Positions 26,097-36,006 of a DNA stretch of 64,000 nt are shown here, in pieces. The notes beneath the pieces were generated by a model that saw nothing but the letters and a program-made list of their open reading frames with translations, had not been told where the DNA came from and did not search any database. Each line of letters opens with the position of its first letter. The stretch's first letter is position 1. The stretch comes from Desulfosporosinus youngiae DSM 17734 (GTDB taxonomy: Bacteria > Bacillota > Desulfitobacteriia > Desulfitobacteriales > Desulfitobacteriaceae): the NCBI RefSeq assembly GCF_000244895.1, contig NZ_CM001441.1, positions 992,001 to 1,056,000 on the forward strand, written 5' to 3'. The position numbers and the translations under genes are program-made.

Positions 26097-26264
26097 TTAA
26101 ATTTACCTCCTGAATTAAGTTAATTCAATGTATAATAACTTATCCTCAATCTTAGCACAGAAAAGAATGAGGAGCAAAAATACAAGGGATATCCACTTAT
26201 ATTAGTGTGATTGAAAGACCATACTTTTAGTATGAAATCAAGGTCGGAAAAGAAAGGGATTGCG

Positions 26265-27512
26265 ATGAAGGAGTATCAAGTTATTGTAGTAGGCGGCGGA
26301 GCAGCCGGTATGATGGCTGCCGGTCAAGCTGCGAAAGGGGGCGCAAAGGTTCTATTACTGGAAAAGAAGGAACGCTTAGGCCGAAAGATTGCAATTTCAG
26401 GCAAGGGGCGCTGTAATATAACCAATGTAGAAAATGTATCGGATTTTATCAGCCATTATCCTGGGAATGGACGCTTCTTACACGGTATTTTGCGGGATTT
26501 TGATAATGTTGCCTTGCGCGAATTCTTGGCCGGCTATGGGGTCGAGACTAAAGTTGAACGTGGAGGACGTGTTTTTCCGGTCTCCGATGATGCAGAGAAA
26601 ATCGTTGAGGCTCTATCAACCTTTATAAAAGATATGGGAGTTGAGGTACAATCAGGAATCACTGTGGAGGAAATTTTAGTTGAGAATGGACATGTCATAG
26701 GGGTGAAAGGGGCAGGCTCTAAACGTTATTTAGCCCCGGCGGTGATTGTATGTACCGGAGGGGCTTCCTATCCTGCGACCGGATCTAACGGGGATGGGTT
26801 TCGATTTGCCCGAAAACTAGGTCACAGCGTGATTACCCCTCGACCAGCCTTAGTTCCTCTTAAAACTGCTGAAGAATGGGTGAAAGAGCTGCAGGGACTT
26901 GCCCTCCGAAATGTTGAGGCATCATTATGGATGGGCGGGAAGAAGCAGAAAACTGAATTTGGAGAAATGTTGTTCACGCATTTTGGGGTATCCGGTCCGA
27001 TTATTTTGACATTGAGCCGACAAGCGGGAGATGCTCTTCGTGAAGGGAAACAAGTCGAGCTTAGGATTAATCTGAAGCCTGCTCTATCCGCAGAACAGTT
27101 AGATAGCCGAGTTCAGCGGGATTTTCAAAAATATAGCAATAAGCTGTTTAAGAATGCCTTGGATGACCTTTTACCTCAAAGTTTGATTCCGGTTTTAATC
27201 CGTCTAAGTGGGATAAATCCTGAAGGGGTTGTACATCAAATTAGTCGTGAAGAACGTAAGTGCTTGGTCAGACTCCTGCAAGGGCTGTCTCTGACGATTA
27301 CAGAAACCCTTTCCATAGAAACCGCAATTGTAACAGCAGGGGGAGTAAACGTCAAAGAAATTAACCCAAAAACCATGGCTTCAAAACGTGTGGAAGGACT
27401 TTATTGGGCTGGCGAGGTTGTTGATGTTGACGGCATAACGGGTGGCTATAACCTTCAAGCTGCCTTCGCCATGGGGTACAGGGCAGGACAGGCTGCGGGG
27501 GATTTTGTTTGA
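26265..27512 (+). CDS. HI0933/YhiN-family flavoprotein (NAD(P)/FAD-dependent oxidoreductase)
   Basis: Rossmann FAD-binding start VIVVGGGAAGMMAAGQAA, then GRKIAISGKGRCNITN, the family signature, and a C-terminal GGVNVKEINPKTMASK...GLYWAGEVVDVDGITGGYNLQ block. 415 residues from the ATG at 26265, preceded by AAAGGG; the frame extends upstream without a ribosome site. The family's physiological substrate is unknown. It appears monocistronic. Confidence 0.9.
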   Translation: MKEYQVIVVGGGAAGMMAAGQAAKGGAKVLLLEKKERLGRKIAISGKGRCNITNVENVSDFISHYPGNGRFLHGILRDFDNVALREFLAGYGVETKVERGGRVFPVSDDAEKIVEALSTFIKDMGVEVQSGITVEEILVENGHVIGVKGAGSKRYLAPAVIVCTGGASYPATGSNGDGFRFARKLGHSVITPRPALVPLKTAEEWVKELQGLALRNVEASLWMGGKKQKTEFGEMLFTHFGVSGPIILTLSRQAGDALREGKQVELRINLKPALSAEQLDSRVQRDFQKYSNKLFKNALDDLLPQSLIPVLIRLSGINPEGVVHQISREERKCLVRLLQGLSLTITETLSIETAIVTAGGVNVKEINPKTMASKRVEGLYWAGEVVDVDGITGGYNLQAAFAMGYRAGQAAGDFV

Positions 27513-27585
27513 TTTTTACTGAACCGGTTCACCAGGAGGTCTGATTAATAAGCCTCCTGCATAAACTCTTCTCGAGGTGGTGTAC

Positions 27586-28065
27586 GTGCGTCGAAGAGGA
27601 AGCTTATTAGAATGGTTGTGGAATACGGTTCAGCAAGGGGAACGTCGAATTATCAGGGTTATGGTTCTGGCATCAGTGTTGCTGTTATTAATGCAGTTAA
27701 GTGCTGCAAGGGATCCGCTTGATTTCTATATGAAGGTAGCATCTGAGGTAGAAGCTCCGCCTTTAGAATTACCTGCACTCGCTAAGCCTGAACTTGAACA
27801 ATCGGTTAAAACATGGCAGGTAACCTTAAAAGCAACACCGGCTGCTCCAATTCGGGTGGTACAGAATGGCACGGTTATTGCCACGTTGGCAAACGGAGAA
27901 CAAAAAGTAGCGGTTAAATCCGGTCAAATCCAATTAGATGGAATAGGAATTGCTCAGACCGTTAAGGTTCAGGTGATTGATAAAGATGCCCAATTGCTTG
28001 AACCACGTCAGAACCAGATGTTCATATTACAAGGAAATATTCAGAACCTGATCGTGAAACCGTAG
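27586..28065 (+). CDS. Membrane-anchored extracytoplasmic protein of unknown function
   Basis: A basic N-terminus (RRRGSLLEWLWNTVQQGERR) precedes one membrane helix at residues ~24-40, then an extracellular domain with beta-strand character (WQVTLKATPAAPIRVVQNG, VKVQVIDKDAQLL). The GTG at 27586 is preferred because GAGGTG lies six bases ahead; 27577 is the alternative. No catalytic motif. It precedes the aromatic operon but is separated from it by a promoter. Confidence 0.6.
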   Translation: MRRRGSLLEWLWNTVQQGERRIIRVMVLASVLLLLMQLSAARDPLDFYMKVASEVEAPPLELPALAKPELEQSVKTWQVTLKATPAAPIRVVQNGTVIATLANGEQKVAVKSGQIQLDGIGIAQTVKVQVIDKDAQLLEPRQNQMFILQGNIQNLIVKP

Positions 28066-28067
28066 TG

Positions 28068-28096
28068 TTGCAAAGCGCTCATTGTCGTACTATACT
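28068..28096 (+). promoter_or_regulatory. Sigma-A promoter of the hutP-like/aroH/aroF operon
   Basis: TTGCAA (28068-28073) and TATACT (28091-28096) with a 17-base spacer. Transcription would start near 28103, giving a leader of more than 200 bases before the HutP-like gene. Confidence 0.6.
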
Positions 28097-28158
28097 GTAA
28101 TTGATGGTAAATATTGTTTGATTATTTTCTCATCAAATGATGAGAAAAGGAGGGTAGT

Positions 28159-28197
28159 ATGGCAGGACGGTTTAAGGTTTCCATAGGAATCTTATAA
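28159..28197 (+). CDS. Possible 12-residue leader peptide
   Basis: AAAAGGAGG is followed seven bases later by ATG and a 12-codon frame (MAGRFKVSIGIL) ending in TAA, upstream of the leader terminator. The ribosome site is excellent, but the peptide has no run of aromatic codons (one Phe only), so classical amino-acid attenuation is not supported. The ATG is part of the conserved TAGTATGGCAG element, so the apparent start may be a by-product of that element. Confidence 0.25.
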   Translation: MAGRFKVSIGIL

Positions 28198-28238
28198 TTG
28201 CATAGTTGAAGAATGGTGGGATGGTTTATAATAAAATC

Positions 28239-28263
28239 AAAGACACTGAAAGGTGTCTTTTTC
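28239..28263 (+). terminator. Leader terminator before the hutP-like gene
   Basis: AAAGACAC pairs perfectly with GTGTCTTT across TGAAAG, followed by TTTTT. It lies inside the presumed leader, 50 bases before the first gene, so it must be read through for expression. Confidence 0.85.
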
Positions 28264-28315
28264 TACCATTTATGACGTTATCCAACAAATCCATTAGGAG
28301 AGGAAGAAGGATAGT

Positions 28316-28732
28316 ATGGCACAAAGTAAAAAGATCGCACTTGCTGCCTTAAAGATGGCTATGACAGAAAGTCGGGAAGAAGAGATCCATTTAAAAGAGT
28401 CCTATCTGAAAATTGGTGTTAAGACTGCAGCAGTTGATTACGGCGGAGAATATGTCGCTTCGATCCGAAAGATTGTCGAACGTGCTATAGTAGCCGCTAA
28501 ACGCGAAGGGGTTATTCAAGAGACTCATGGAGATGAGGGAGCGGTAGCCGGAGCGACTCGGGAAGCGTTAACTCAGATAATGAACAAAGCCATGGGGTTG
28601 AATATTGGCGGAAAAATTGGGATCGCACGTCAGAGTGATCATTTGAGTGTTGCCGTATTTTTTGGAATTGGGCTCTTGCATTTAGATGAGGTAGCTGTCG
28701 GATTGGGACATCGCGTCGCTCCCAAGGAATAA
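28316..28732 (+). CDS. HutP-family (RNA-binding antiterminator-like) protein
   Basis: 138 residues. The pattern around RKIVERAIVAAKREGVIQETHGDEGAVAGATREAL and FFGIGLLHLDEVAVGLGHR aligns, from memory, with Bacillus subtilis HutP, which binds histidine, Mg and UAG-type triplets to read through the hut terminator. The two central HutP metal ligands His73 and His77 fall on Gly here, while His138 corresponds to His122, so the effector is probably not histidine. It heads an operon with aroH and aroF, 12 bases before aroH. The start codon overlaps a TAGTATGGCAC element, suggesting autoregulation. Confidence 0.8.
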   Translation: MAQSKKIALAALKMAMTESREEEIHLKESYLKIGVKTAAVDYGGEYVASIRKIVERAIVAAKREGVIQETHGDEGAVAGATREALTQIMNKAMGLNIGGKIGIARQSDHLSVAVFFGIGLLHLDEVAVGLGHRVAPKE

Positions 28733-28743
28733 GGGGGGAGAAC

Positions 28744-29112
28744 ATGGTTCGAGGAATACGAGGTGCCACAACGGTCAATAGCAATGATGCTCAAGAGATT
28801 CGCGAAGTAACTCAGGAGCTTTTACAAATGATTTTAAAGGAAAACGCACTTAGCCCTGAAGACCTGGTCAGTGTCATTTTTACAGTTACGCCGGATTTGA
28901 ATGCTGACTTTCCCGCTTCAAGCGCGCGAGCCATTGGCTGGCAGTTAGTACCGCTCTTATGTTCGACTGAAATTCCGGTGCCCAATGCACTTCCATTTTG
29001 TATTCGAGTGCTGATACACGTTAATACTAACCTTACACAGAGTGAAATCCGACACATCTTTTTGCGTAATGCTGCAATATTACGTAAAGATTTAGTAGAT
29101 ACTGATAGTTGA
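28744..29112 (+). CDS. aroH: Chorismate mutase, AroH type
   Basis: Converts chorismate to prephenate for Phe and Tyr synthesis. The short trimeric AroH fold is recognised from the start MVRGIRGATTV and the block IPVPNALPFCIRVLIHV; 122 residues matches. It lies 12 bases after the HutP-like gene behind GGGGGGAG and 44 before aroF, so substrate supply and branch point are co-expressed. Confidence 0.95.
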   Translation: MVRGIRGATTVNSNDAQEIREVTQELLQMILKENALSPEDLVSVIFTVTPDLNADFPASSARAIGWQLVPLLCSTEIPVPNALPFCIRVLIHVNTNLTQSEIRHIFLRNAAILRKDLVDTDS

Positions 29113-29156: not shown

Positions 29157-29972
29157 GTGAAACTAATCGCTCGACGGAAGGATGAACAACAGGAAACCAC
29201 TACAGTTCGAGTGGGAGATGTTATCATCGGGGGTCCTCAGTTGGTTGTTATAGCTGGTCCGTGTGCCATTGAAAGCTATGAGCAGTTATTAAGTACAGCC
29301 TTGGAAGTTCAACGCCTTGGAGCAGTCATGCTCAGAGGTGGTGCCTATAAGCCAAGGACTTCTCCATATTCCTTTCGTGGTAAAGGGGAAACCGGTTTGG
29401 AAATGTTAGCCCAAATTAAAGCTTTAACCGGTCTTCCGGTGGTCACTGAAGTCATGGATGCGCGTGATATAGAGCGAGTTGCGAAAGTCGCTGATATGTT
29501 TCAGATAGGATCCCGAAATATGCAAAATTACACGCTGTTAAGTGAAGTCGGAAAAACCAAGCTTCCGGTTTTCCTAAAACGTGGTTTGGCCTCAACGTTA
29601 GAGGAATGGGTTTACGCAGCGGAGTATATCATGTCAGAAGGAAATGACCAGGTCGTTTTATGCGAACGAGGGATTAGAACGTTTGAAACCTATACCCGTA
29701 ATACGGTTGATATTACTGCGATACCCGCCTTAAAAGAGTTAACACATCTTCCTGTGTTTTTAGATCCCAGCCATGGTACCGGAAAATGGTCGCTGGTCAG
29801 CCCGGTTGCTTTAGCAGGGATCGCCGCGGGCGCAGATGGTCTAATGATTGAAGTACATCCCCAACCGAATCTGGCTTTAAGCGATGGAGATCAATCCCTA
29901 AACTTTGAACGTTTTGCCGAACTTATGGTTAGAGCAGAATCCTTGGGTAAAGCTGTCGGACGAGAAATTTAA
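29157..29972 (+). CDS. aroF: 3-deoxy-7-phosphoheptulonate (DAHP) synthase, core-only type I-beta
   Basis: First shikimate-pathway step, condensing PEP and erythrose 4-phosphate. Motifs: [49 protein letters not shown] and DPSHGTGKW. At 271 residues it lacks the N-terminal ferredoxin-like regulatory domain present in the second copy at 32701, so it should not show that domain's feedback control. Its regulation may be at the RNA level through the leader and HutP-like protein. The GTG at 29157 follows AAGGGGAG. Confidence 0.95.
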   Translation: MKLIARRKDEQQETTTVRVGDVIIGGPQLVVIAGPCAIESYEQLLSTALEVQRLGAVMLRGGAYKPRTSPYSFRGKGETGLEMLAQIKALTGLPVVTEVMDARDIERVAKVADMFQIGSRNMQNYTLLSEVGKTKLPVFLKRGLASTLEEWVYAAEYIMSEGNDQVVLCERGIRTFETYTRNTVDITAIPALKELTHLPVFLDPSHGTGKWSLVSPVALAGIAAGADGLMIEVHPQPNLALSDGDQSLNFERFAELMVRAESLGKAVGREI

Positions 29973-30429: not shown

Positions 30430-31623
30430 ATGGAAAATTTGGTCTTTCAGGTTGGAACGGCACTGTTATTAATTGCGATAGTATCTATGTTGGCGGCAAA
30501 GCTAAAGCTCTCAAATATACCGTTTTTAATTGTCCTTGGTATGCTGCTTGGTTCACATGCCCCAACTATCGGAATCTTTGATTTCTCATTTTCCGCAAGT
30601 AAAGAGATTATCGATTTTCTTGGAAAAATTGGAGTTCTTTTTCTTCTCTTTTATTTGGGATTAGAATTCTCTGTTCGGAAATTGATCTCACTGGGGAACA
30701 AAATTGTTTTTGGAGGAACCGTTTACGTTTTTTCAAATTTCTTACTTGGCTTAGCCTTTGGAATATTAGCTGGATTTCCGCTGTACGAAACCTTAATTAT
30801 TTCGGGTATGATGTCGGTATCCTCTACGGCAATGGTAGCTAAGGTTTTGATTGACTTAAAACGAACAGGGAACTCTGAGACAGAACTCATCTTAGGGATG
30901 ATATTATTTGATGATATTTTCCTGGCTGTATTTCTATCAATCATGTCAGGAGTGCTCCTTGGAGGGGCAACATCTTTGGGAGGACTCATTATTTCTGTAG
31001 CAATCTCACTTGGATACATGCTATTATTTTTCTTGATTGCCAGAAAAGGAACTCCATTTTTGAACAAGTTTTTAAATATCTCTTCAAGCGAGGTATTCGT
31101 TATTGTTATATTTTCTTCTTTGTTTTTCGTTGCTGGATTCTCAGAGAATTTGCATGTTGCAGAAGCTATTGGGGCTTTATTATTTGGGCTGGCCCTCTCT
31201 GAAACTGAGCACGTGAAGAGAATTGCCCATAATGTTGTTCCGTTTCGGGATTTCTTTGGGGCGGTGTTCTTCTTTAGCTTTGGTTTAGGCATTGACCCTA
31301 GAACCCTTGGAGGTGCAGTATGGATAGCACTGGCTGGGGCACTGATTACTATCATCGTAAATCTAGTATCCGGCATGATCGCAGGGAAGAACGCAGGACT
31401 GTCCCATAAGGCCTCAACCAATATAGGGCTTACTATTATGGTGCGGGGAGAATTTACGATTATCGTGGCAAATCTGGGGATAGCTGCGGGGCTTATGCCG
31501 TTGCTTAAATCGTTTACTGCTGTGTATGTCTTGATATTGGCCATTGTAGGACCTTTGATTGCAAAAGAGTCGAAACATATCTATAATGGGTTGAACAAAC
31601 TATTTAAATGGAATCAAGCATAA
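30430..31623 (+). CDS. khtU: CPA2-family monovalent cation:proton antiporter (KhtU-like)
   Basis: A 397-residue integral membrane protein with about 12 helices and the KefB-type Na/H-exchanger fold. It has the paired acidic region ILFDDIFLAVFLS in the middle and MVRGEFTIIVANLG near the end. There is no C-terminal RCK domain in the same chain; instead an RCK_C protein follows 46 bases later, as in the Bacillus KhtTU potassium efflux system. The ATG has GGGAGGG upstream. The assignment to KhtU rather than another CPA2 member rests on this neighbour. Confidence 0.8.
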   Translation: MENLVFQVGTALLLIAIVSMLAAKLKLSNIPFLIVLGMLLGSHAPTIGIFDFSFSASKEIIDFLGKIGVLFLLFYLGLEFSVRKLISLGNKIVFGGTVYVFSNFLLGLAFGILAGFPLYETLIISGMMSVSSTAMVAKVLIDLKRTGNSETELILGMILFDDIFLAVFLSIMSGVLLGGATSLGGLIISVAISLGYMLLFFLIARKGTPFLNKFLNISSSEVFVIVIFSSLFFVAGFSENLHVAEAIGALLFGLALSETEHVKRIAHNVVPFRDFFGAVFFFSFGLGIDPRTLGGAVWIALAGALITIIVNLVSGMIAGKNAGLSHKASTNIGLTIMVRGEFTIIVANLGIAAGLMPLLKSFTAVYVLILAIVGPLIAKESKHIYNGLNKLFKWNQA

Positions 31624-31669
31624 GAAGTTATAATATACTATGGGTAATTTAATGGAGGATGATTGAAAA

Positions 31670-32158
31670 ATGGCTACAATTAGAGAATCCGATCTTCCAG
31701 GTATAGGCAGAAAATTTCTGGTACAAACAATATCAGGAGATAAAATGGTTATTGTTATTCATGATGATGGCAGAAGAGATATTTATCATTTTGAAGAGAA
31801 TGATCCTGACGAGATCATCTCCTCAATCTCTTTAGATGATGCAGAGGCCAGGCAGATCGGCTCTATCATTGGTGGAATGAACTATATGCCCAAGGCATTG
31901 GAAACTATTGAAGTAGCACTGGATGAATTAATTATTGAATGGCTAAAGGTCGAGCCACATTATAAAAGCGTTGGCAAATGTATCGCTGATTTACAAGTTC
32001 GTGAAAAAACTGGTGCTACGATTTTGGCTATTGTAGAGAAGCATAAACAGAGAATTAATCCCGGGCCGGATGACATCATTGTAACAGATTCGACCATTGT
32101 TGCGGCTGGAGTGAGAAAGCAAATAAGGGCACTGAAAGAACTCTTAGTACAAGGATAA
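31670..32158 (+). CDS. khtT: RCK_C (TrkA_C) regulatory subunit, KhtT-like
   Basis: A 162-residue soluble regulator. An N-terminal alpha-beta domain (~1-70) resembles KhtT, and a TrkA_C domain spans ~75-160 (KTGATILAIVEKHKQRINPGPDDIIVTDSTIVAAG). In Bacillus KhtT gates the KhtU potassium/proton antiporter and its RCK_C domain binds cyclic di-AMP; that binding here is inference. The gene order (antiporter first) is reversed from khtSTU and no khtS is present. AATGGAGGATGATTGAAAA precedes the ATG. Confidence 0.8.
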   Translation: MATIRESDLPGIGRKFLVQTISGDKMVIVIHDDGRRDIYHFEENDPDEIISSISLDDAEARQIGSIIGGMNYMPKALETIEVALDELIIEWLKVEPHYKSVGKCIADLQVREKTGATILAIVEKHKQRINPGPDDIIVTDSTIVAAGVRKQIRALKELLVQG

Positions 32159-32174
32159 TTTAATACTCAACGTG

Positions 32175-32230
32175 ACAGGGGGAGGACCTTTTGACACACA
32201 GTTATGTATGTCAAAAGGTCCTCCCCCTGT
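32175..32230. repeat. Long perfect extragenic palindrome (REP-like)
   Basis: 22-base arms (32175-32196 and 32209-32230) are perfectly complementary around a 12-base loop. The outer arm begins TGACAGGGGGA, a core shared with palindromes at 62198 and 63375. It follows khtT but has no T-tract, so it is either an mRNA-stabilising hairpin or a dispersed repeat. Confidence 0.8.
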
Positions 32231-32356
32231 TATGCTTTCAAAGTTTAATCACTTCTAGATCATTGGGAACATACAGGTTGCGGTTAATAATACTCTTGAA
32301 CTGCTCAAAGGAACAGCTTCTATGGAGCATAACCTAAGTATAATTTTTCTGAGTCA

Positions 32357-32392
32357 GGGGGGTTGTGAGAACCTCCCTTTATATGTTAAGAT
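32357..32392 (+). promoter_or_regulatory. Weak hairpin and candidate promoter for the second aroF operon
   Basis: GGGGGGTT/AACCTCCC (32357-32377) forms an 8-bp hairpin followed by TTT, possibly ending the khtUT unit. Overlapping it, TTGTGA (32363-32368) and TAAGAT (32387-32392) with an 18-base spacer could drive aroF-tyrA-aroA. Both calls are moderate. Confidence 0.35.
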
Positions 32393-32458
32393 AGTTTAAA
32401 TTTTAAATTTTGGTATTAAACCATTAAAGGTAGTTAATAAGCTTTGTTTGGCAAAGTT

Positions 32459-32583
32459 TAGGGTAGGATGGCAGTCAGGGTTCCGGCAGGGGCTTCATGC
32501 AGAAGACTCTTCAAAAGATAGGTAGGATAGCAGGATGGGCGCGATTAGGAGTTAAAGCACCCTCTATTAAGGGTGCTTTTTTG
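32459..32583 (+). promoter_or_regulatory. TAG/CAG-rich attenuation leader of the second aroF
   Basis: Dense NAG triplets with two copies of the 11-base element: TAGGATGGCAG at 32464-32474 and TAGGATAGCAG at 32523-32533, plus TAGs at 32459, 32519 and 32546. A terminator closes the segment at 32554-32583. The first copy and its flank (GGGTAGGATGGCAG) differ by one base from the leader at 28152-28165. HutP proteins bind such UAG-type triplets, so this is the proposed target of the HutP-like protein. Confidence 0.5.
32554..32583 (+). terminator. Leader terminator upstream of the second aroF
   Basis: AAAGCACCC and GGGTGCTTT form a 9-bp stem with an eight-base loop followed by a long T run. It lies ~120 bases before the aroF start with no gene in front, so it is an attenuator rather than a gene-end terminator. 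Confidence 0.85.
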
Positions 32584-32656: not shown

Positions 32657-32695
32657 TAGGTAAAAAGTAGTAAGTAGGATGGTAGAAAGGGGCAG
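32657..32695 (+). promoter_or_regulatory. UAG ladder overlapping the ribosome-binding region of aroF
   Basis: TAG triplets at 32657, 32668, 32675 and 32683 and a CAG at 32693 bracket the AAAGGGG ribosome site. 32675-32685 reads TAGGATGGTAG, one base from the leader element. A protein bound here would block translation. Confidence 0.4.
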
Positions 32696-32700
32696 AAAAA

Positions 32701-33738
32701 ATGATCGTTGTTATGAAAATGGGTTCGACGGTAGAGCAGATTGAAGAGGTGTCCGCACGTTTAACGGAAGAAGGTTTCAAAGTTCATCTTTCCCAAGGAG
32801 TTGAAAGAACAATTATAGGGGCTATTGGGGACCGAACGCGACTCGAAGCCCTTGATTTAGAAGCACTGCTTTGTGTAGACAAAGTTGTGCCCATTCTGGC
32901 ACCCTACAAACTAGTTAGCCGGGAGTTTCACCCAACAGACAGTATTATTCGCATAGGTGATCAGGAAATTGGCGGGCGCAGGGTCCATGTTATGGCTGGT
33001 CCTTGTGCTGTTGAAAGTCGGTCTCAGATTTTAGAAACCGCGCAAGCAGTGCGTGAAGCAGGTGCCACCTTTTTGCGTGGAGGTGCTTTCAAGCCTCGTA
33101 CCTCCCCTTATTCCTTTCAAGGATTAGAAGAAGAAGGATTGCGTTATTTGGCTGAAGCTCGGGAGAAAACGGGTCTTTTGGTGATTACTGAGGTTATTGA
33201 TGCCCGGGACGTTCCATTGGTGGCTGATTATGCTGACGTTCTGCAAATCGGTGCTCGGAACATGCAGAACTTTATCCTCCTCAAAGAAGTAGCCAAGTGC
33301 GGGAAACCTGTTCTTCTGAAAAGAGGTCCTTCAGCAACTTTAGAAGAATGGATGATGGCAGCCGAATACATCATGGATGGCGGGAATTATCAAGTAATGT
33401 TCTGCGAACGGGGGATCCGAACCTTTGAAAGCTACACTCGAAATACTTTGGATTTAAGTATGGTCCCGGCCTTACATGCCCTTTCCCACTTACCGGTCAT
33501 TATTGACCCCAGTCATGGGACGGGAAAATGGCATTTAGTCCATCCTATGGCGAAAGCAGCTCTTGCCGCAGGAGCAGACGGTTTAATTGTCGAAGTTCAT
33601 CCCCATCCTGAAAAAGCTGTTTCAGATGGAAAACAGTCCTTAACACCTGAAAGGTTTCAGATGATGATGGCTGATCTGGTAAGGCTTACTTCCGCACTAG
33701 ATCGGGAATTGGGGGAAGTGGGTAAGCATGTGGAATGA
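32701..33738 (+). CDS. aroF: DAHP synthase with N-terminal regulatory domain
   Basis: Second copy of the first shikimate enzyme. Residues 1-~70 form the ferredoxin-like domain ([25 protein letters not shown]) known to mediate feedback inhibition in Thermotoga-type enzymes. The catalytic core follows with [44 protein letters not shown] and DPSHGTGKW. 345 residues. It overlaps tyrA by 11 bases, heading an aroF-tyrA-aroA operon. An attenuator leader and UAG ladder lie upstream. Two enzymes, one feedback-regulated and one not, imply a division of labour. Confidence 0.96.
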
Positions 33739-34645
33739 ATTTACAAATACGATAAATGAACAAAATTTGACACCAGGATGGGCAGGCCTTCGAATACCGA
33801 AGGCTTGCGTCCTTGGTTTAGGATTGATTGGCGGTTCTTGGGCAGGGGCTTTGCACCAAGCCGGTTGGGATGTTTGCGCGGTCGACCCGGAAAGAGCCAG
33901 CATTGATGAGGCGGTGAAGAGGGGGTGGCTGCAAACAGGATGGACAGCTATGCCGGGATTTTTAGATGTTGATTTAATCGTATTAGCCCTTCCCCTTGAG
34001 GCTTTGGAGGTGGGTCTGGATCAATTGGTGGGAAAGATTCCTAAGGGAACGGTTGTAACTGATGTGGGGAGCATAAAAGCAGAGATTTGTAACAAAATGT
34101 TAGCTAATCAAAGGGATTTTTGTAACTTCTATTTTATTGGCGGGCATCCTATGACGGGTTCGGAACAATCTGGTTTTAGAGTCTCTGATCCCGACCTTTT
34201 TAGAGGGTATCCGTATGTATTAACTCCTTCAGCGGATTGCCCGAAGCAAGTGGTTCAAAAACTAGCGGAAACCGTGCAGGGGTTTGGCGCTAAAGTTGTT
34301 TTTCGAAAGCCGGTCGATCATGATGCAGACGTAGCAATGGTCAGTCATATCCCTCATTTGTTAGCAGTAACTTTAACGTTAGCCGCCCAGGATGCTTCAA
34401 AAGAGGGGGAATCACCCTTGGCGTTAGCTGGAAGAAGTTTTCGGGATTTGACGCGTATTGCTGACAGTTCCCCGGAAATGTGGAAGGAAATTATGGTTAG
34501 GAATGCTGATGCAATCTTGGACGGTCTAACTCTTTGGGAACAACGAATTAGAGAATTAAAAACCTCCCTCCAGCAGGGAGACAGAGACACTATTGCGGAA
34601 GCGTTTCGCAAAGCCCATGCTGCGCGGAAAGAAACTTTAAATTAA
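33728..34645 (+). CDS. tyrA: Prephenate dehydrogenase
   Basis: NAD-dependent oxidative decarboxylation of prephenate to 4-hydroxyphenylpyruvate in tyrosine synthesis. The Rossmann loop [13 protein letters not shown] lies at ~28-40, [13 protein letters not shown] is the substrate-site block, and the helical dimer domain follows. The ATG at 33728 lies inside the end of aroF, indicating coupling. 305 residues, without the C-terminal ACT domain found in some Firmicutes. Confidence 0.95.
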
Positions 34646-34719: not shown

Positions 34720-36006
34720 ATGGGCGGTGTGTTTATAAAGCCGGTTACTAAATTAGGCGGTGAAATCAAGGTTCCTGGCGATAAATCGATTTCTCATAGG
34801 GCAGCCCTCTTTGGTGGAATGGCCCATGGAGAAACCCATGTTTCAAATTTTCTCCTAGGGGAGGACTGTTTAAGTACGCTTCGTTGTTTGAAACAACTTG
34901 GTGTTTCCTGGGAGAGGCAGGAGACGGAGGTTTGGATTCGTGGTGAGGGCATGGGAGCGTGGCAAGAGCCGATAGATGTCCTGGATGCCGGTAATTCAGG
35001 AACGACATTAAGGTTAATGCTTGGAGCATTAGCCGGCAGTCCGTTTACTGTCACCATGAGTGGAGATGAGTCTCTTCGCTCACGGCCCATGCGTCGGGTC
35101 ACAGATCCTCTCAAACAAATGGGTGCTCAGATCATGGGACGCCGGGAAGGTAACTTGGCTCCCATCACGATGAAAGGCGGTCAGTTACAAGGGCAGAGCT
35201 TTCGGACCGCCGTTGCCTCGGCTCAAATCAAATCAGCTATTATCCTGGCTGGGCTAAGGGCGCAGGGCGAAACGAGCGTAGAAGAACCCGCTCTTTCTCG
35301 GGATCATACTGAACGTATGCTTAGGGGATTCGGAGTCGATGTCCAAAGCGATCGAACAGTGGCAAGAGTTCATGGGGGTGGACGCTTAAACGGCCAAGCA
35401 GTTTCCGTACCAGGGGATATCTCCTCAGCTGCCTTCTTTCTTGTCTTAGGAAGTTTAGTTGGACAAGGTGAGATCATCTTGCCGGATGTCGGTGTGAACC
35501 CAACTCGTACAGGAATCTTAGACGTATTAAGAGCCATGGGTGCAGATATTGAATTGCTTGACTCCTCTGAAATCTGTGGAGAGCCTAGAGCAACATTACG
35601 AGTCCGCCCTGCGAAACTTAAAGGGATTGAAATCTCAGGGGACATGATACCGCGATTAATCGATGAAATCCCTATTCTCGCTGTGGCAGCGAGCCTAGCC
35701 GAAGGAGAAACTGTTATTCGGGATGCCGCAGAACTAAGAGTAAAGGAAACGGATCGGATAAGTACAGTCGTCAAGGGATTAAATGCTCTGGGAGCTAAAG
35801 TTGAGGAACTCCCTGATGGAATGCGCATCCAAGGACAGACTACTTTGTACGGTGGTCAAGCCAGCAGCTTTGGAGATCACCGCTTGGCCATGGCGTGGGC
35901 TATCTCAGGTATGCTGTCTCGAGAAGGGGTCAGCGTAGAAGACATGGAGGCTGCGGATGTATCCTATCCTGAATTTTTAACTGTCATTAAGAAAGTAGCT
36001 GGGTAA
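34720..36006 (+). CDS. aroA: 3-phosphoshikimate 1-carboxyvinyltransferase (EPSP synthase)
   Basis: Adds the enolpyruvyl group of PEP to shikimate 3-phosphate. Conserved blocks: PGDKSISHRAALFGG, LDAGNSGTTLRL, SLRSRPM, SAQIKSA, PGDISSAAFF, IDEIPILAVAA, ELRVKETDRI and DHRLAMA. 428 residues. AGGAGG lies before the ATG. It follows tyrA after 74 bases and azlC starts five bases after its stop. Confidence 0.97.
   Translation: MGGVFIKPVTKLGGEIKVPGDKSISHRAALFGGMAHGETHVSNFLLGEDCLSTLRCLKQLGVSWERQETEVWIRGEGMGAWQEPIDVLDAGNSGTTLRLMLGALAGSPFTVTMSGDESLRSRPMRRVTDPLKQMGAQIMGRREGNLAPITMKGGQLQGQSFRTAVASAQIKSAIILAGLRAQGETSVEEPALSRDHTERMLRGFGVDVQSDRTVARVHGGGRLNGQAVSVPGDISSAAFFLVLGSLVGQGEIILPDVGVNPTRTGILDVLRAMGADIELLDSSEICGEPRATLRVRPAKLKGIEISGDMIPRLIDEIPILAVAASLAEGETVIRDAAELRVKETDRISTVVKGLNALGAKVEELPDGMRIQGQTTLYGGQASSFGDHRLAMAWAISGMLSREGVSVEDMEAADVSYPEFLTVIKKVAG

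Follow-up and report, generated by a model that had tools for sequence, protein, structure and literature searches.

Organization of the aroF2 leader

We examined a 64,000-nt stretch of the Desulfosporosinus youngiae DSM 17734 chromosome (NZ_CM001441.1, positions 992,001 to 1,056,000; hereafter the window, numbered from its first letter), and in particular the leader of aroF2 (32701–33738), which codes for a 3-deoxy-D-arabino-heptulosonate 7-phosphate (DAHP) synthase with a ferredoxin-like domain as judged by Pfam and is followed by tyrA (33728–34645) and aroA (34720–36006). Coordinates of leader elements, and of the aroF and hutP-like genes and aroH, refer to the + strand. From 5′ to 3′, the leader consists of a promoter-like TTGTGA-N18-TAAGAT sequence (32363–32392, recognized by direct reading, with a predicted transcription start at ~32399), a stem-loop (32440–32458) that belongs to the RNAalifold consensus of 24 leaders and lies directly 5′ of box A, box A itself (GTAGGATGGCAG, 32463–32474; YAG-N5-YAG, exact match, where Y is C or T), a variable middle region, box B (32523–32541) with triplets set 8 nt apart (TAG at 32523, CAG at 32531 and GCG at 32539), 12 nt, and an intrinsic terminator (32554–32583) made of a 10-bp stem (32554–32563/32570–32579) and a T run. 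A third box, GTAGGATGGTAG (32674–32692), abuts the aroF2 Shine-Dalgarno sequence AAAGGGG.

A first-pass annotation had pointed to six TAG and several CAG triplets in about 90 bases, to two TAG-N5-CAG elements 59 bases apart and to a terminator after them, all of which are borne out. Between 32459 and 32559, that is in 101 nt, there are six TAG (32459, 32464, 32519, 32523, 32528 and 32546) and five CAG (32472, 32476, 32487, 32500 and 32531) among a total of 15 NAG triplets, and 32464 and 32523 are the first positions of the two TAG-N5-CAG elements. Eleven YAG is the maximum for any 101-nt segment on either strand of the 64 kb, reached in a fraction of 9.4e-5 of segments, all at this tract; six or more TAG per 101 nt are found in a fraction of 0.0012, at six places on the + strand. 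TAG-N5-YAG by itself is common, with 18 occurrences on the + strand and 7 on the − strand of the window, so that density together with position is what counts. This commonness is what speaks for a chance richness in triplets of an AG-rich leader that ends in an ordinary terminator, an explanation to which we give next to no credence: it is refuted computationally by the matrix scan described below, with conservation, strand bias, position and the lack of any shuffled match at a score of 16 all standing against it. The window contains three exact copies of GTAGGATRGYAG, the last of which, at 32674, is near the aroF2 Shine-Dalgarno sequence; when two mismatches are allowed, the 12 matches do not exceed the 10.9 of shuffled sequences. 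The 16-mer YAGNAYNGYAGRAYGG has two matches in the 5.66-Mb genome, at window positions 28155 and 32523, both in this cluster (one match for the reversed pattern).

A HutP-family gene heads the neighboring aro cluster

Approximately 3.7 kb upstream of the aroF2 leader lies the gene of a 138-aa HutP paralogue (28316–28732; Pfam HutP, E = 3e-49), the proposed RNA-binding regulator, which we call aro-type HutP. It heads a hutP-aroH-aroF cluster with aroH (28744–29112; type I chorismate mutase, PF07736) and aroF1 (29157–29972; DAHP synthase without a ferredoxin-like domain, Pfam). Its leader follows the same plan as that of aroF2, with a promoter-like TTGCAA-N17-TATACT sequence (28068–28096, read directly and similar in relatives), a box A (GTAGTATGGCAGGACGG, 28154–28170), a box B with degenerate triplets (GAAGAATGGTGGGATGG, 28208–28224) and a terminator (28239–28264, read directly), whose hairpin and T run recur in relatives.

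By profile and fold the window protein is a member of the HutP family. It scores 167 bits against PF09021 (cut-off 25), residues 7–133 covering positions 1–128 of the 128-position profile. The structural match needed a model, since phmmer found no match to the window protein in PDB. The AlphaFold2 model (mean predicted local distance difference test score of 86) superimposes on 1vea_A with a Z score of 17.7 and a root-mean-square deviation of 2.0 over 127 aligned residues; HutP structures reach Z scores of 15–18, the best non-HutP row 7.2, and the first 10 Foldseek rows are all HutP.

Two tests indicate that it is not the histidine HutP. The NCBIfam equivalog of the latter, NF002838, does not match the window protein at an E value of 0.001, and scores 182.6 (cut-off 155) with the paralogue P0001. 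Furthermore, the metal and L-histidine ligands of histidine HutP, which we take to be His73, His77 and His138, are replaced by G75, G79 and L123 in an alignment with 1wmq, residues that are invariant in 11 orthologues, with a one-residue doubt of register for the third position left by the adjacent invariant H122. The genome encodes three HutP-family proteins, one of them in the window. Its canonical HutP retains the ligand histidines and adjoins, elsewhere in the genome, a Lyase_aromatic gene that is presumably hutH, while the neighbors of the window protein are aroH and aroF, not histidine utilization genes. The third gene (L002, 1492–1935; genome C1:4989410–4989805) also retains the ligand histidines and lies directly 5′ of two P-II-type genes resembling nifI1-nifI2 by eye; weak matches to the window protein in many members of the genus are probably relatives of this P-II-linked copy.

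The triplets had initially been likened to the binding track of a HutP- or TRAP-type protein. The HutP half of this proposal gains from the gene in the window, with the qualification that histidine HutP is not the probable partner and the tract is probably no canonical HutP site. The TRAP half fails: no mtrB (PF02081) was found in the genome (0/1), in a search for which the Bacillus subtilis control was positive, and TRAP was rejected as a partner on this ground.

The leader is conserved as short boxes

Alignment of the aroF2 leaders of the genus (A1) comprises 24 of 27 loci; L094 has no leader, L101 has a visible leader that the pattern search missed, and L104 was masked. Conservation across these 24 loci is strong in the boxes, in the 5′ hairpin and in the terminator with its loop, and the middle region varies in length and sequence; 2 of the 18 pairs in the RNAalifold consensus are changed on both sides. 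The first nine bases of box A are near-invariant, and the third triplet of box B is GAG, GCG or GGG in relatives, so that the pattern reads YAG-N5-YAG-N5-N(A/C/G)G. The triplet spacing, on which the first-pass annotation had staked its reading, is thus conserved in the genus, and it recurs in the distant loci described below. The box next to the Shine-Dalgarno sequence was matched in 24 of the 27 genus loci and is also present in four family members (L056, L059, L060 and L062) in which the 280 nt inspected upstream of aroF2 contain no terminator. Similarity among genus relatives extends to the region 5′ of the leader, around the promoter-like stretch. In seven loci of the order-level family f3 (L064, L066, L067, L068, L070, L071 and L073), the aro-type HutP is kept and boxes are unseen before its gene; tblastn found no aro genes in the stretches fetched for these loci.

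Conservation of the 5′ hairpin, the boxes and the terminator loop would be expected of a riboswitch or other structured RNA that senses a ligand itself, with the triplets as part of its fold. We regard this as very improbable. RNAalifold yields the 5′ hairpin and the terminator only, and neither the window nor 12 distant loci contain an Rfam family at its gathering score, the sub-threshold matches of the leader falling far below. Moreover, boxes are found again next to Shine-Dalgarno sites, and their spacers vary. What is conserved in the genus is a set of short boxes, not a complex fold. A leader-peptide attenuator was likewise rejected by eye: short frames begin at an ATG inside boxes of both leaders, many relatives have ACG in place of the ATG in the box of the hutP leader, and no run of aromatic residues was seen in the short frames of the window leaders.

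The boxes recur in distant relatives

Scanning of species genomes turned up at least 497 confirmed relatives of the window protein, in hosts that include Desulfosporosinus, Acididesulfobacillus, Moorella, Pelotomaculum, Desulforamulus, Desulfoscipio, Thermincola and Petroclostridium. Among the 80 relatives whose loci were kept, aroH is present in 62, aroF2 in 35, and tyrA and aroA in 27. A 16-position box matrix was built from 63 training boxes, 62 from the genus and one from L110, which is outside the genus and not in A1, and was applied to 71 of the 80 loci (L120–L190, 750,822 nt) whose proteins share at most 83% identity with the window protein; one of them, L122, is named Desulfosporosinus. 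At a score of at least 16, we observed 27 matches on the coding strand, none on the other strand and none in shuffled sequences; at a score of at least 12, the corresponding numbers are 58, 6 and 5.6, with matches in 35 of the 71 loci. All but one of the 27 high-scoring matches precede a target gene (26/27), by 26–270 nt for aroF2, 94–158 nt for hutP or 7–87 nt for aroH, the remaining one being just inside aroH. A count that uses no motif gives a consistent picture: a spacing of 8 nt is the one most enriched among YAG pairs upstream of hutP, aroH and aroF2 in the distant loci, with 81 pairs, or 1.84 per kb vs 0.62 elsewhere (approximately threefold). In the leaders of the genus and the distant ones, box A often has two good triplets and box B three, with N5 spacing. 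Spacers vary in the distant leaders, some of which, such as that of L173, copy the window plan of box A, hairpin, box B and terminator.

Co-occurrence in the phylum and target genes

Matches to the strict 19-mer YAGNAYNGYAGNAYGGNAG are present in 99 of the 398 genomes examined from the phylum. Of these 99 genomes, 89 encode the aro-type protein (E below 1e-30) vs 139 of the 299 without a match, the corresponding numbers for a reversed-pattern control being 16 of 27 vs 212 of 371; in total, close relatives of the window protein are found at this threshold in 228 of the 398 genomes, their residues not having been checked one by one. Because the strict 19-mer fails to match even the genome from which the window comes, the count of 99 is a minimum for true elements, and genomes with the protein and no element are in part false negatives. 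Some of the 99 are chance matches, for instance in genome G089, where a tandem array of the octamer CAGAACGG (L192) matches the pattern through its repeat content; this array is probably unrelated because G089 has no HutP-like match.

These distributions bear on the identity of the binding protein. As the genome has three HutP-family genes, the element could be bound by another HutP copy, either histidine HutP or the P-II-linked one, or else by an unrelated RNA-binding protein. This is improbable, given that histidine HutP is found in 41 of the 398 genomes (21 strongly) and in only 11 of the 99 with the element, vs 89–92 of these 99 for the aro-type protein, which is in addition physically linked to the targets.

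We surveyed 90 of the listed YAGNAYNGYAGNAYGGNAG matches for the gene within 700 nt downstream. By blastp, aroF2 follows 33 of them, aroH 5, tyrA 2 and hutP 1; another 7 lie inside long frames and 42 precede other genes. Pfam typed 29 of these 42, leaving 13 untyped, one of which (L265) is AroH by eye. The largest group among the typed genes codes for TrpX-type ABC substrate-binding proteins (9/29), four of which were tested on NCBIfam TrpX and scored 328–357, below the cut-off of 390. The others are one prephenate dehydratase, one shikimate kinase, one HisC-like aminotransferase followed by aroF, six DctP, three SSF, one SNF, three GHMP kinases, two acyl-CoA ligases, one POR/TPP enzyme and one prismane. 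Hence, besides aroF, aroH and hutP, the element precedes tyrA, pheA, aroK and TrpX-like genes.

In the D. youngiae genome, the pattern GTAGKATRGYAG has seven matches, three of them outside the cluster (L074, L079 and L080), and carries no genome-wide weight because its reversed control also has seven. At L074 (1490–1570; genome C1:743724), a YAG-octamer box and a terminator precede a lactate-permease-family gene, which is possibly a transporter of the same regulon; boxes precede 6 of the 16 strong genus members of this gene, its own copy included and L291 being a near-miss by eye.

Two genes, one of the Na+/H+ exchanger family and one of the TrkA_C type, lie between aroF1 and aroF2 in the window (30430–32158); neither was found in the stretches of the 40 relatives compared, where hutP-aroH is often close to aroF2. 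The TrkA_C gene is followed, ahead of the aroF2 promoter, by a long near-perfect inverted repeat, GGGGGAGGACCTTTTGACA...TGTCAAAAGGTCCTCCCCC (32178–32232), longer than the attenuator stem. Upstream of the hutP leader (26211–28065), a flavoprotein-like gene (by eye) and a gene of 162 aa without Pfam match (27577–28065) have matches in 45 and 28 of the 80 HutP-like loci, respectively.

A candidate antiterminator and the sign of regulation

In distant leaders, the element frequently ends in NAGGAG or NAGGGAG, and its 3′ end tends to mirror the 5′ arm of the terminator (CUCCU and variants). Of 69 such leaders found by script, 12 were dropped on viewing (wrong hairpin or spacer over 60 nt), which left 57 in 43 clusters. 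Pairing of the box flank with its own terminator arm has a mean energy of −9.47 kcal/mol vs −8.30 kcal/mol with foreign arms (sd 0.31; 0 of 5000 permutations), and shuffled flanks average −7.89 kcal/mol, with 0 of 200 reaching the own-arm mean. The same permutation test with the box plus its spacer gave 1 of 5000, and the best duplex begins inside the element in 40 of the 43 clusters. Within the genus (24 leaders), the 3′ half of box B pairs with the arm at a mean of −10.3 vs −8.6 for shuffled sequences, without being better in every leader. When the window RNA is cut before the 3′ arm of the terminator, GGGCGC of box B folds onto GCACCC of the 5′ arm. This complementarity suggests that the 3′ end of the element is one strand of a competing antiterminator, in which case bound protein and antiterminator should exclude each other, and bound protein is predicted to terminate transcription; the boxes abutting Shine-Dalgarno sequences point in the same direction.

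We therefore propose, with a probability of roughly 0.7, that the tract is the binding track of the aro-linked HutP paralogue and serves TRAP-like attenuation of aroF2-tyrA-aroA. Like HutP, the aro-type protein is probably hexameric, and it would recognize YAG triplets arrayed in rows with a spacing of 8 nt (YAG-N5). Its targets and the loss of the histidine site lead us to infer an aromatic ligand in the bound form, either an aromatic amino acid or a metabolite of the shikimate pathway. When the aromatic end product is plentiful, the protein would occupy boxes A and B and keep the 3′ end of box B off the 5′ arm of the terminator, which would then form ahead of aroF2-tyrA-aroA. Protein at the third box, beside the Shine-Dalgarno sequence, would also block translation of aroF2, and the same arrangement before the protein's own gene would result in autoregulation.

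The sign could be the opposite, the paralogue acting as an antiterminator like histidine HutP and hindering terminator formation, for example when a precursor accumulates or the end product is low. The presence of two triplet clusters here too is compatible with this possibility, which we nevertheless find unlikely, if the most serious of the alternatives: the boxes lie upstream of the terminator stem rather than within it, their 3′ ends tend to match the antiterminator partner, and the boxes next to the aroF2 and aroH Shine-Dalgarno sequences are in keeping with repression.

Several observations weigh against the proposed TRAP-like attenuation by the aro-type HutP. The arm matching is an average signal, the own arm beating the median foreign arm in 29 of 43 clusters, doing worse in 13 and tying in one. 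In the genus, pairing of box B with the arm hardly varies and consequently provides no covariation test; the middle region pairs with the arm no better than shuffled sequences do (−9.78 vs −9.68), on which account it was rejected as an antiterminator strand. The terminator fold is favored at equilibrium. No box was seen by eye upstream of hutP in nine f3 loci, the matrix has no match down to a score of 12 in 36 of the 71 distant loci, and the 139 genomes mentioned above encode the protein without the strict element. Downstream genes such as those for DctP, SSF, lactate permease, GHMP kinase and prismane proteins are not evidently aromatic. Finally, the co-occurrence and permutation tests take genomes and leaders without correction for relatedness.

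Relationship to known regulatory systems

Taken beyond this locus, our results make it fairly probable that anaerobic Bacillota share an apparently undescribed, class-wide aromatic amino acid regulon, in which a protein of HutP fold devoid of the histidine/metal pocket would sense an aromatic amino acid or shikimate-pathway metabolite and do the job of TRAP, both attenuating by concealment of an antiterminator and obstructing ribosome sites, through octamer-spaced YAG tracks before aroF, aroH, tyrA, pheA, aroK and TrpX-like transporter genes. Among the open-licence PMC matches listed, no paper links HutP to aromatic genes. If our interpretation is true, RNA regulation in response to amino acids is a general capacity of the HutP fold, and a second, independent solution to TRAP-like control exists. 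It would suggest a function for a family with close relatives in more than half of the sampled genomes, and offer a clean system for studying how the ligand and the sign of a single RNA-binding fold can change.

T-box leaders likewise control aromatic genes, being found before aromatic amino acid genes of Gram-positive bacteria, including trpX, as in a study on Streptococcus suis trpX (PMC9382623); no T-box match reaches the Rfam gathering score in the window. The aro-type system resembles HutP, the histidine-dependent antiterminator of Bacillus hut (PF09021), in fold and in the linkage of gene and target. The HutP target, as outlined in PMC7430163, has NAG-triplet clusters near a terminator, as does the leader described here. 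However, the aro-type protein is only ~25% identical to HutP, has its histidine ligands replaced and is linked to aro rather than hut genes; its triplets are spaced by N5, and its boxes overlap the apparent antiterminator, which makes an opposite sign probable. In logic, the arrangement is closer to TRAP (MtrB), the tryptophan-activated regulator of Bacillus trp, for which the same paper reports a triplet track over the antiterminator together with translational control: both systems combine a track overlapping an antiterminator, control of translation and aromatic amino acid genes. A TRAP site consists of 11 G/UAG triplets 2–3 nt apart, whereas the triplets here are few, in register at 8 nt and paired with a different protein family. 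By this analogy, the aro-type system would work like TRAP but is not TRAP.
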